DNA from: Flavobacteriaceae bacterium
GTDB lineage: Bacteria; Bacteroidota; Bacteroidia; Flavobacteriales; Flavobacteriaceae
Direction: 5' to 3'
Assembly (NCBI GenBank): GCA_013042715.1
Contig: JABDPN010000197.1
Coordinates: forward strand, 1-34,110
DNA length: 34,110 nucleotides
This document shows, piece after piece, positions 15,434 through 19,368 of the stretch. Made by a program: the position numbers and the translations under genes. The notes beneath the pieces are model-generated. The model searched no databases. It had not been told where the DNA came from and saw nothing but the letters and a program-made list of their open reading frames with translations. Every line of letters starts with the position of its first letter. The first letter of the stretch is position 1.

Positions 15434-15471
15434 AAAAAAGCACCTTGATTGTGGAATCAAAGTGCTTTTTT
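15434..15471. terminator. Rho-independent terminator, placed to end the leftward smORF/sRNA transcript
   Basis: AAAAAAGCACCTTGATT-GTGG-AATCAAAGTGCTTTTTTT, one mismatch in about 16 bp. It lies between the U32 start and the smORF stop, so no annotated gene reads into it from the right. Confidence 0.75.
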
Positions 15472-15524
15472 TAGACTAACTCGATTTATACTTTGTTTTT
15501 TATTAAACAGTGTTAAAATTCGAG

Positions 15525-15617
15525 CTATCCTCCTTCAGATTCGCAATTACTAGTTACAGCATATGATATTGCGATTCCATTTTTTGAATTATATAATATT
15601 TTCTTTAAAAATTTCAT
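15525..15617 (-). CDS. 30-aa small ORF MKFLKKILYNSKNGIAISYAVTSNCESEGG
   Basis: ATG to TAG read directly from the reverse complement. Below the ORF-track length cutoff. Has an A-rich start region (ATAATCCAAAATG) and sits in a unit with its own promoter-like motif and terminator. Confidence 0.45.
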   Translation of the reverse strand: MKFLKKILYNSKNGIAISYAVTSNCESEGG

Positions 15618-15647
15618 TTTGGATTATCTCATCTACTTAAAGGAATC

Positions 15648-15680
15648 TCCTTAGATATAGGAATTAACTATATCTAAGGA
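15648..15680. repeat. Stem-loop (13-bp perfect arms, 7-nt loop) in the predicted 5' leader of the smORF transcript
   Basis: TCCTTAGATATAG-GAATTAA-CTATATCTAAGGA. Confidence 0.7.
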
Positions 15681-15716
15681 AAGGTTTCATAGCAATAATT
15701 CCTCATTACATAAATT

Positions 15717-15745
15717 AGATACAAAAAACTTAAAAAGGTTGCGTT
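15717..15745 (-). promoter_or_regulatory. Putative ECF sigma promoter, copy 1 (reads left into the smORF)
   Basis: Minus strand AACGCAACC (15745-15737) - 14 nt - GTATCT (15722-15717); identical layout to copy 2 at 16855-16883. Confidence 0.65.
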
Positions 15746-15751
15746 ATATAA

Positions 15752-15782
15752 TTGTCAGATGGCAAAAGATGTGTTATTTTAG
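15752..15782 (+). promoter_or_regulatory. Candidate housekeeping promoter of recA
   Basis: TTG (15752-15754) - 20 nt - TATTTTAG (15775-15782), close to Bacteroidota TTG/TAnnTTTG. Confidence 0.4.
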
Positions 15783-15811
15783 CGATTATATATAAAAGAA
15801 AAATATAGAAA

Positions 15812-16813
15812 ATGAGTAATGAAAAAGACGCAAAATTAAAAGCACTCAAGCTTACTTTAGATAAGCTAGATAAAGCCTATGGGAAAGGAACAGTAATGCG
15901 AATGAGTGATGCAGCAGTAGAAGATATTGAAGCTATCCCATCTGGTTCTTTAGGTCTAGATATTGCATTAGGAGTAGGTGGCTATCCAAAAGGTAGAGTC
16001 GTAGAAATTTATGGCCCAGAATCTTCTGGAAAAACAACATTAGCACTTCACGCTATTGCTGAAGCTCAAAAAGCAGGAGGTATTGCTGCTTTTATAGATG
16101 CAGAACATGCTTTTGATAGATTTTATGCTGAAAAGTTAGGTATAGATATAGATAACCTTATAATTTCCCAACCAGATCATGGTGAGCAAGCTCTAGAAAT
16201 TGCAGATAATCTTGTGCGTTCTGGAGCAATAGATATTATTGTTATTGACTCCGTTGCTGCATTAACACCTAAAAGTGAAATTGAAGGTGAAATGGGAGAC
16301 TCTAAAATGGGTTTACATGCTCGTTTAATGTCTCAAGCGCTTAGAAAACTAACAGCCTCAATTAGTAAAACACATTGTACCATGTTTTTCATTAATCAAT
16401 TACGTGAAAAGATTGGTGTAATGTTTGGCAATCCAGAAACCACTACTGGCGGAAATGCTTTAAAGTTTTATGCTTCAGTTAGATTAGACATAAGACGATC
16501 TACACAAATAAAAAGCAGTAATGGCGAGGTTTTAGGTAATAAAACACGTGTTAAAGTGGTTAAAAACAAAGTCGCTCCACCTTTTAAAACAGCTGAATTC
16601 GATATAATGTATGGCGTAGGAATTTCTAAAGTAGGTGAAATTTTAGATGTTGCAGTAGATTACGAAATAATTAAGAAAAGTGGTTCTTGGTTTAGTTATC
16701 AAGATACTAAACTTGGTCAAGGTAGAGATGCTGTAAAAACCATAATAAAAGACAATCCAGAACTAATGGAAGAGTTAGAAGAGAAAATAAAAACGATACT
16801 CTCTAAAAAATAA
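15812..16813 (+). CDS. recA: Recombinase RecA
   Basis: 333 aa. [23 protein letters not shown] Walker [38 protein letters not shown]. Confidence 0.98.
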
Positions 16814-16819
16814 TTAATC

Positions 16820-16847
16820 AAAAATCCCGTAAAAACGGGATTTTTTT
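16820..16847. terminator. recA Rho-independent terminator
   Basis: AAAAATCCCGT-AAAA-ACGGGATTTTTTT. Confidence 0.85.
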
Positions 16848-16854
16848 ATCTTTA

Positions 16855-16883
16855 AACGCAACCTTTTAGAAGTTTAAGTATCT
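16855..16883 (+). promoter_or_regulatory. Putative ECF sigma promoter, copy 2 (drives the lipoprotein-sigma-anti-sigma operon)
   Basis: AACGCAACC (16855-16863) - 14 nt - GTATCT (16878-16883), followed 30 nt later by the GTG start at 16914. Confidence 0.65.
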
Positions 16884-16913: not shown

Positions 16914-17336
16914 GTGAAAAAGATATTTTTTGTATGTCTATTTTTTTTGATTTTATCTTCATGTAGTACAGATAATGATAATCCTGAATTCTATTTTGAA
17001 TTTGTTCCAATAGAAAGTGTGGATATGCCATTATCGTTTCAACATGGAGAAGTTTACACTATAGAATATACTTACTTAAGGCGAACAAATTGTCACTTTT
17101 TTAGTGATTTGTATTTTGACCGTTTTGAAAACACAAGAACTGTAGCTGTTATAAATACCGTTTATGAAAATTTAGAAAACACTACTTGTGTAGAATTAAC
17201 TGATGAATTAGTAACTGGTCAATTTAATTTTCATGTATTAAACCAAAATGGTGTTTATACATTTAAATTTTGGCAAGGCATTAATCAAGTAGGTGAAGAT
17301 GAATATTTAATAATAGAAATTCCAGTTATTCAATAA
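16914..17336 (+). CDS. Hypothetical lipoprotein, first gene of the ECF operon (GTG start)
   Basis: MKKIFFVCLFFLILSSCSTDNDN signal peptide with lipobox. The nearby ATG at 16912 reads ATG-TGA, so GTG is the only start that keeps the signal peptide. Confidence 0.75.
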   Translation: MKKIFFVCLFFLILSSCSTDNDNPEFYFEFVPIESVDMPLSFQHGEVYTIEYTYLRRTNCHFFSDLYFDRFENTRTVAVINTVYENLENTTCVELTDELVTGQFNFHVLNQNGVYTFKFWQGINQVGEDEYLIIEIPVIQ

Positions 17337-17356: not shown

Positions 17357-17899
17357 TTGGGTTTAAAACAACTCATACAAAAATGCCAAAAGAATGACAC
17401 TAAAGCACAAAGCGAACTTTACAAGCTCTATTCGAGTAAACTATTTGCAATTTGCTTAAAGTATTCTAGGAATCATGCAGAAGCTCAAGATAATCTGCAC
17501 GATGCGTTTATGAGTATTTTTAATAAAATCCATCAATTTAAACACAGAGGGTCTTTTGAAGGTTGGTTAAAACGAATTGTTATAAACACTGCATTACAGC
17601 GATATAGAAAAAAAGGTGTTTTAGAAATAGTAAACGAGGAATTAATAGAAGATGTTAATGTTGTAATTGAAAATGATGAGGTAAATATTGATTTCCTTCT
17701 TAAGTGTATACAAGAATTACCCGATAGATATAGACTGGTTTTTAATCTATATGTCTTGGATGGTTATTCTCATAAAGAAGTAGCAGAAATGCTAAAAATC
17801 ACAACAGGAACTACAAAATCCAACCTTGCCAGAGCAAGAATGATTTTAAGAGATAAAATAGAAAAGTATAAAGCAAATTTAAACTCACAATCGTTATAA
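17357..17899 (+). CDS. RNA polymerase ECF-type sigma factor (TTG start)
   Basis: 180 aa. Region 2 (AQSELYKLYSSKLFAICLKYSRNHAEAQDNLHDAFMSIFNKIHQFKHRGSFEGWLKRIVINTAL) and region 4 (LPDRYRLVFNLYVLDGYSHKEVAEMLKITTGTTKSNLARAR). Confidence 0.93.
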   Translation: MGLKQLIQKCQKNDTKAQSELYKLYSSKLFAICLKYSRNHAEAQDNLHDAFMSIFNKIHQFKHRGSFEGWLKRIVINTALQRYRKKGVLEIVNEELIEDVNVVIENDEVNIDFLLKCIQELPDRYRLVFNLYVLDGYSHKEVAEMLKITTGTTKSNLARARMILRDKIEKYKANLNSQSL

Positions 17900-19368
17900 T
17901 GAGTGATAAAAAACAAATAGATAGATTATTTCAAGAGAAGCTAAAAGATCTTGAAATTACTCCAGACCAATTGGTTTGGAAATCTATTCAGGCTGATCTA
18001 AACAAAAAGAAAAAAGACAGAAAAGTAATTCCATTATGGTTTAAACTCTCTGGAATTGCTACAAGTATTATACTTTTAATTGCCATAGGCTCTTATTTCA
18101 ATAAAGATTCTGAACCAACTTTAAAAGAAACTTTAGTTGATTCTCCTATCGGAGAAGAAAACAACAATACTAATTTAGAGTTAGAGAATAAAACACCAAA
18201 AACAAACCAAAAAAACTTTGAAAGTGTTGATAAAAACTTAACTCCAAAACCTAATCAACATACAAACCTTACAGGCCAAAACAAAAAAGATAATATTGTT
18301 AGTAATACTACAAATACAGAAATCTCAAAATCCACTAAAAATCTCAATAAATTAAGCAAAAACTCTGTCAATCAAGAAATTGTAAACACTAAAAATCAAA
18401 ACATTCCACAATTAAAAAAAGAAAAGAATATTCAATTTGAGTATAAGACAAATGAATTCTTAGAAAGCAACAAAATAAATTCTGAAAAGGCACTAGTAAA
18501 TAATAATACTAAAACTGAAATAGACACTTCAATTGAGAATAAAAAAACAAATAAAGAACAATTAATTGAAGAAACTGAAAATGCAATTACTGAAGTAATT
18601 GCTTCAAATGAAGAAAAAGAAGATATAAAAATTGAAGAAGAAGCTATAAAACGCTGGAGCATAAACCCAAATGTTGCTCCTGTTTATTTTAGTTCCATTG
18701 GAGATGGTTCTTCTATTCATTCTCAATTTAACAATAATGCTAAAACAGGAAAAATAAACATGAGTTATGGTATAAGTGCTAGTTATGCTCTAACTGATAA
18801 AATTAGTGTTAGAACTGGATTAAACTTGGTTAATTTAGGTTATAGTACTAACGATGTGGCTGTTTTAAGCAGAACAGTTTCTTCTGGTTCTTTAAATCAA
18901 AATTTATACAAAAACATTGATTTTAATAATACGTCCAGATCAATGACAATTCTAAATATAAATCAACCTTTTTCTGAAGATTTACCATCGACGCTTCCAA
19001 ATAAAATTAAAGGAGAATTAGATCAAGAACTTGGATATATAGAAGTCCCAATAGAAGTTGAATACAAACTTATGGATAATAAATTTGGCATGAGTTTTAT
19101 TGGTGGTTTTAGTACACTTTTTTTAAATAATAACGAAATCTATGCTATAAATAATGGTGAGAAAACACTTATTGGAGAGGCTACTAATGTTAATAACACG
19201 AGTTTTAGTGCAAATTTGGGATTAGGTCTTAATTACAATTTAACCAAAAGTATTAATCTTAATATAGAGCCAACATTTAAGTATCAATTAAATACATTCG
19301 AAAATACATCTGGAGACTTCAAACCTTATTTTATAGGTTTGTATTCTGGAATAAAATATAAGTTTTAG
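17899..19368 (+). CDS. Putative dual-membrane-spanning anti-sigma factor: cytoplasmic N-terminus, one TM, Asn/Lys-rich linker, C-terminal outer-membrane beta-barrel
   Basis: TAATG coupling to the sigma gene. N-terminus QIDRLFQEKLKDLEITPDQLVWKSIQADLNKKKK, TM LSGIATSIILLIAIGSYF, low-complexity linker, then barrel-like strands ending PYFIGLYSGIKYKF with C-terminal Phe. Confidence 0.75.
   Translation: MSDKKQIDRLFQEKLKDLEITPDQLVWKSIQADLNKKKKDRKVIPLWFKLSGIATSIILLIAIGSYFNKDSEPTLKETLVDSPIGEENNNTNLELENKTPKTNQKNFESVDKNLTPKPNQHTNLTGQNKKDNIVSNTTNTEISKSTKNLNKLSKNSVNQEIVNTKNQNIPQLKKEKNIQFEYKTNEFLESNKINSEKALVNNNTKTEIDTSIENKKTNKEQLIEETENAITEVIASNEEKEDIKIEEEAIKRWSINPNVAPVYFSSIGDGSSIHSQFNNNAKTGKINMSYGISASYALTDKISVRTGLNLVNLGYSTNDVAVLSRTVSSGSLNQNLYKNIDFNNTSRSMTILNINQPFSEDLPSTLPNKIKGELDQELGYIEVPIEVEYKLMDNKFGMSFIGGFSTLFLNNNEIYAINNGEKTLIGEATNVNNTSFSANLGLGLNYNLTKSINLNIEPTFKYQLNTFENTSGDFKPYFIGLYSGIKYKF

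Follow-up and report, generated by a model that had tools for sequence, protein, structure and literature searches.

Among described systems, those closest to the locus analyzed here are the Das/Dma systems of Bacteroides. Dma proteins are encoded beside ECF21 sigma factors, autoregulate their operon, and control vesiculation, and nigD1 acts downstream of Dma1 (PMC13088901). The Das/Dma systems of Bacteroides thetaiotaomicron share with our locus an ECF sigma factor adjoining its anti-sigma factor, an operon that is self-regulating (and here would be so), and the succession, predicted in our case, of an N-terminal domain, an inner-membrane helix, a disordered tether, and a C-terminal barrel (PMC13088901). 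Particular to the present locus are the linkage to recA, the promoter ACGCAACC-N16-ATCT, a regulon of lipoproteins and micropeptides, and a 30-residue peptide, none of which is mentioned in the part of the Das/Dma account consulted (PMC13088901). The SM6 motif of a Flavobacterium psychrophilum ECF sigma factor is comparable in that it too marks a group of ECF promoters in a flavobacterium, among them that of an anti-sigma/sigma pair, but it differs in having a CGT -10 box and in driving T9SS genes (PMC9723704). The -10 box of the motif considered here is [CT]ATCT, and a literature search on this flavobacterial motif found no description of it.

The window, that is, the whole stretch of 34,110 nucleotides of flavobacterial DNA analyzed, carries two copies of this motif around recA, and the features discussed below are collected in Table 1. 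A pattern scan of the window found AACGCAACC-N14-GTATCT at both of the positions given in the original prediction, without a mismatch in either copy, and the 19 identical positions it had counted between the copies were recovered as 13 + 6. Its statement that no other correctly spaced site exists also stands, as the single third match carries three mismatches, with 0.58 matches expected by chance at up to three. The minus-strand copy lies upstream of recA and is divergent from it; the plus-strand copy lies 3' of the recA terminator and 5' of a lipoprotein gene, the ECF sigma factor gene, and a third ORF, separated from the lipoprotein start by the predicted 30 nt, counted from the end of the -10 box. 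Both copies face away from recA.

Table 1. Features of the recA region in the window, ordered by position.
Feature	Position	Strand	Basis
Intrinsic terminator of the small transcript	15434..15470	-	Fold; sequence
Hairpin opening at the last Gly codon, stop codon inside	15474..15530	-	Fold; covariation
30-codon ORF, MKFLKKILYNSKNGIAISYAVTSNCESEGG	15525..15617	-	ORF; own-genome profile E = 4.7e-16, one copy; coding signature across a set of 74 unique ORFs
15-bp hairpin separating promoter and peptide ORF	15646..15682	-	Fold; terminator-like scan; comparison
GCTATGAAA element	15685..15693	-	21-25 nt 3' of the -10 box; at fixed distance in 86/120 unique minus transcripts
ECF-type promoter of the small peptide/RNA gene (putative)	15717..15745	-	Exact match; divergent from recA in 59/74 loci
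Promoter elements of the minus copy	-35, AACGCAACC, 15745-15737; -10, GTATCT, 15722-15717	-	
recA	15812..16813	+	Pfam RecA, 7.8e-139
Intrinsic terminator (hairpin) 3' of recA	16820..16845	+	Terminator-like scan
ECF-type promoter of the sigma operon (putative)	16855..16883	+	Exact match; kept in 73/80 loci
First operon gene, a lipoprotein with lipobox LSSC	16914..17336	+	ORF; homologue in 75/80 loci; no Pfam family
ECF sigma factor	17357..17899	+	Pfam Sigma70_r2, Sigma70_r4_2
Anti-sigma factor (predicted)	17899..19368	+	AlphaFold2 segments; barrel matches OmpA

The sigma factor contains regions 2 and 4 only, as is typical of the ECF group (Sigma70_r2, 8.5e-14; Sigma70_r4_2, 1.7e-15; 180 amino acids). 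With its protein sequence as the query, orthologues were sought in 60 related genomes and in 80 named genome records, which include Winogradskyella, Gelidibacter, Lacinutrix, Psychroserpens, Bizionia, Algibacter, and others. Of the 80 orthologous loci, 73 have the motif ACGCAACC-N16-ATCT ahead of the operon of lipoprotein and ECF sigma genes; on the far side of recA, it lies divergently upstream of that gene in 59 of the 74 loci with an adjacent recA, the exact minus-strand motif being absent from 15. These two positions account for 132 of the 133 matches in the 80-locus set, in which the reversed control pattern gave 0 matches, and the same placement was seen in the 60 relatives. The form conserved across loci is ACGCAACC-N15-[CT]ATCT, so that, of the letters originally proposed, the core holds, whereas the outermost A at the start and the G opening GTATCT differ between genomes and are not general. 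A -35 element with an AAC core, a -10 element at a constant distance from it, and a position ahead of the sigma operon are what is expected of an ECF promoter, and the suggestion that the AAC core follows the -35 logic of such promoters is borne out.

Genome-wide, 118 matches to ACGCAACC-N16-ATCT were obtained in 38 genomes, versus 5 for the reversed pattern. Where a close sigma orthologue is present, the motif occurs in 31 of 32 genomes, and in the one exception the promoter begins with TGCGCAACC, a one-base variant. None of the 6 Flavobacteriaceae genomes lacking a close orthologue, in which the best match to the sigma factor does not stand out from other ECF paralogues, contains the motif, and 22 further genomes lacking one gave a single match in all, leaving 21 of the 22 motif free. 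The presence of the motif tracks that of the sigma orthologue, as would be expected of a dedicated sigma factor and its promoters, with the qualification that shared descent could partly confound this co-occurrence. Because the motif, across many marine members of one family, passes the test originally set for it, conservation at orthologous ECF operons, and tracks the sigma factor, the originally proposed autoregulation with a second target across recA is well supported at the level of sequence. We put the probability at about 85% that both motifs are promoters of this ECF sigma factor, driving its own operon and a small peptide/RNA gene on the other side of recA, in which case the sigma factor would recognize the motif directly.

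The third gene of the operon overlaps the end of the sigma gene at position 17899, in a gene order that is the same in relatives. An AlphaFold2 model built with 40 aligned orthologues (mean pLDDT, 65.8; barrel blocks mostly >90) consists of helices at residues 3-35, a helix of inner-membrane type (46-68), disorder over 69-228, and a barrel modeled with confidence (253-488). The barrel matches OmpA (E = 2.5e-08); a weak match to Pfam OMP_b-brl falls below the cut-off. The predicted order of cytoplasmic domain, inner-membrane helix, disordered tether, and barrel, next to a sigma gene, is that of the Dma family, and the protein is accordingly predicted from the model to span both membranes in the manner of Das/Dma of Bacteroides. 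The Dma-like neighbor would also suggest that the sigma factor belongs to the ECF21 subgroup.

It can be hypothesized from this architecture that the anti-sigma factor holds the sigma factor through a cytoplasmic N-terminal domain while its OmpA-like barrel sits in the outer membrane, the two ends being connected by one inner-membrane helix and the disordered tether. By analogy with the Dma systems, the barrel may sense a disturbance and release the sigma factor; the inducing signal is conceived here from that analogy, which likewise points to a sigma factor of the cell-envelope stress type. Free sigma factor would then transcribe its own lipoprotein-sigma-anti-sigma operon, the short terminated transcript across recA that encodes the conserved 30-residue peptide, and, in relatives, genes for several surface lipoproteins and for a membrane micropeptide with a single helix.

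The last of these targets emerged from 73 motif sites that were fetched from positions away from recA. By a simple lipobox rule, a lipoprotein ORF lies downstream of 41 of the 73 sites versus 8 of 71 control ORFs, and inspection adds a few more. The ATG usually follows the -10 box by 14-40 nt, and most sites stand 15-60 nt ahead of a gene for a surface lipoprotein or for a membrane micropeptide. Nine sites without a long ORF are followed by a 28-36-residue single-helix membrane micropeptide with the pattern N-x-x-L-L-x-F-S, for which nothing above the cut-off was found in Pfam or NCBIfam. A profile of this micropeptide finds it in 19 of the 60 genomes, none of which lacks the sigma factor, and three further copies reached through the profile and not through the motif have promoters one mismatch off. 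In many genera, the same promoter precedes this family, which extends to N-x-x-L-L-x-F-S-x-N and is present at twelve of our loci. The motif also lies upstream of glycosyltransferase genes that are nearly identical between two genera (L123 and L137), a rare shared target that is not a lipoprotein. Hence, of the two-target picture initially drawn, both targets remain, but the regulon of relatives is far wider and consists mostly of lipoprotein genes. In the genome of the window itself, an incomplete draft (82%), the exact pattern gives one extra match, antisense within a long ORF and probably due to chance. Candidates for further members in this genome amounted to that match and two with one mismatch, against two control matches, and were judged to be chance, so the regulon of this draft seems limited to the two sites flanking recA.

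The minus-strand unit had been described as a small transcript that no long ORF explains. A long ORF is indeed lacking, but the unit is not unexplained, as a conserved 30-codon ORF had been missed. A profile of the peptide detects it in 72 of 301 genomes of the family (E ≤ 0.01), and 63 of the fetched loci encode a GG-ending peptide, all divergent from recA and 58 of them with the exact promoter pattern. The C-terminal consensus is N-[SG]-[NS]-C-[KR]-x-D-G-G, typically N-S-[NS]-C-K-A-D-G-G, with TSNCESEGG as the version in the window. Across 74 unique 30-codon ORFs, a dN/dS-like ratio is 0.32 for the whole peptide and falls to 0.08 over its final nine codons and 0.07 over the final five, compared with 1.42 and 0.71 in the other reading frames; Gly29 and Gly30 are invariant with varying codons, and TAA, TAG, and TGA are all in use as stop codons. 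Judged by these ratios, the peptide is under strong purifying selection, and because this selection falls on the C terminus, the peptide is the likelier product where it is present. Comparison of the unit with Rfam gave nothing reaching the gathering score, and comparison of its peptide with Pfam and NCBIfam gave no family match. The unit is a conserved, previously unnamed small peptide/RNA gene.

The transcript around the peptide is itself conserved. A short upstream ORF, MKPFLRYS, opens at GCTATGAAA in the window, and in many members of the peptide gene the leader is likewise extended and carries a short ORF that begins at this element; ancestrally, the peptide itself probably started in this region. 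The hairpin between promoter and peptide ORF is inserted relative to short-leader genomes. Nearly all members have a hairpin at the stop codon, in which own arms pair at -11.80 versus -9.64 kcal/mol for shuffled partners (standard deviation, 0.20), with double compensatory changes in 4 of 11 pairs. Several Winogradskyella and Algibacter loci keep the promoter, leader element, and terminator and have lost an intact peptide ORF, so the peptide would not always be the needed product. Decayed remnants of the ORF (ATTAGGTGTTTCAG ... GCCGATGTAGATTAAC) are visible in the retained transcript of five Winogradskyella loci (L220, L226, L235, L238, and L239). Upstream of recA in five other loci (L058, L060, L061, L062, and L063), the same promoter precedes a different structured RNA, in which GGTGGTCATTTCC pairs with GGAGTGGCC. 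Given the peptide-less loci and this alternative RNA, the minus RNA may have a role of its own. We tentatively consider that the unit could be a dual RNA/peptide gene of a new type under sigma control, in which a nearly invariant K-x-D-G-G end is encoded with its last codon and stop inside the conserved hairpin, the output is the peptide or the behavior of the ribosome at the stop, for example, as an anti-sigma feedback ligand or envelope effector, and the peptide has been lost repeatedly with the RNA kept.

E. coli RybB and MicA are Sigma-E-dependent small RNAs, made as short terminated transcripts from an envelope-stress ECF promoter. The minus unit shares the short terminated transcript and, by prediction, the type of promoter; unlike RybB and MicA, most of its members encode a selected peptide, and they have no Rfam match. 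It is possible, if doubtful, that the unit is a small regulatory RNA of this kind that represses envelope mRNAs, with the peptide ORF secondary. That promoter, GCTATGAAA element, and terminator outlast the decayed ORF, that the stop-codon hairpin covaries, and that this site holds another structured RNA in other lineages would all fit such a role, as would the complementarity of GAGTTAG in the hairpin to CTAACTC before some SusC starts; strong selection at the amino acid level, combined with third codon positions that are free to vary and stop codons that replace one another, argues against it, as does the finding of the SusC leader element in genomes without the sigma factor. Some SusC/TonB receptor leaders (four loci) carry CTAACTCAAAT, complementary to GAGTTAG, a few bases before the ATG. 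As a target signal, the 12-mer GACTAACTC was unenriched in 13 genomes (7 matches versus 12 in the control), and the longer leader CTAACTCAAAT..ATGAA, although mildly enriched (19 versus 6), was set aside because it is also present in genomes without the sigma factor.

That the peptide is instead a mini-lipoprotein, cut at the Cys to leave a lipid-anchored CKADGG, is improbable. Its charged N terminus and weak hydrophobic stretch, and a regulon rich in lipoproteins, are in keeping with this idea, and a Cys is present in 68 of the 74 unique ORFs. However, a lipoprotein would have a hydrophobic residue at -3 and an invariant Cys, and 63 of the 74 carry Asn at -3, which does not resemble a lipobox; moreover, K-x-D-G-G is retained in members lacking the Cys (L187, L194, and L202) or the hydrophobic core (L182 and L197), and the Asn and the Cys-less members weaken the reading. 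Very unlikely is a role of the small ORF as leader or attenuator of the next gene on the same strand (window positions 15347-14103), since a strong terminator and a TAnnTTTG box resembling that of the primary sigma factor lie in between and that gene, by inspection, varies by genus (U32 peptidase or rhodanese/TrhO-like). As the two copies in the window lie on either side of recA, the motif might be taken for an operator at which a DNA-binding protein regulates this gene, and not for a sigma promoter. This is extremely unlikely, since both copies are directed away from recA, dozens of sites in other places have no recA, the -35/-10 spacing and the distance to the ATG are fixed, and the motif tracks the sigma factor. 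We found no functional reason for the position of recA between the two promoters, and it may simply be a stable neighbor.

With both motifs read as promoters of the ECF sigma factor, it would be the peptide more than the RNA that does the work in genomes encoding it, either as a small effector in the envelope or in feedback regulation. The analysis offers a promoter code and a regulon, both open to testing, for anti-sigma factors of a class that would span both membranes and is known so far from vesicle control in Bacteroides. The 30-residue peptide beside recA is strictly conserved and represents a small-protein family absent from the Rfam, Pfam, and NCBIfam collections searched and easily missed by annotation. 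The regulon, surface lipoproteins plus two families of micropeptides, hints at what this system may manage in marine Flavobacteriaceae.
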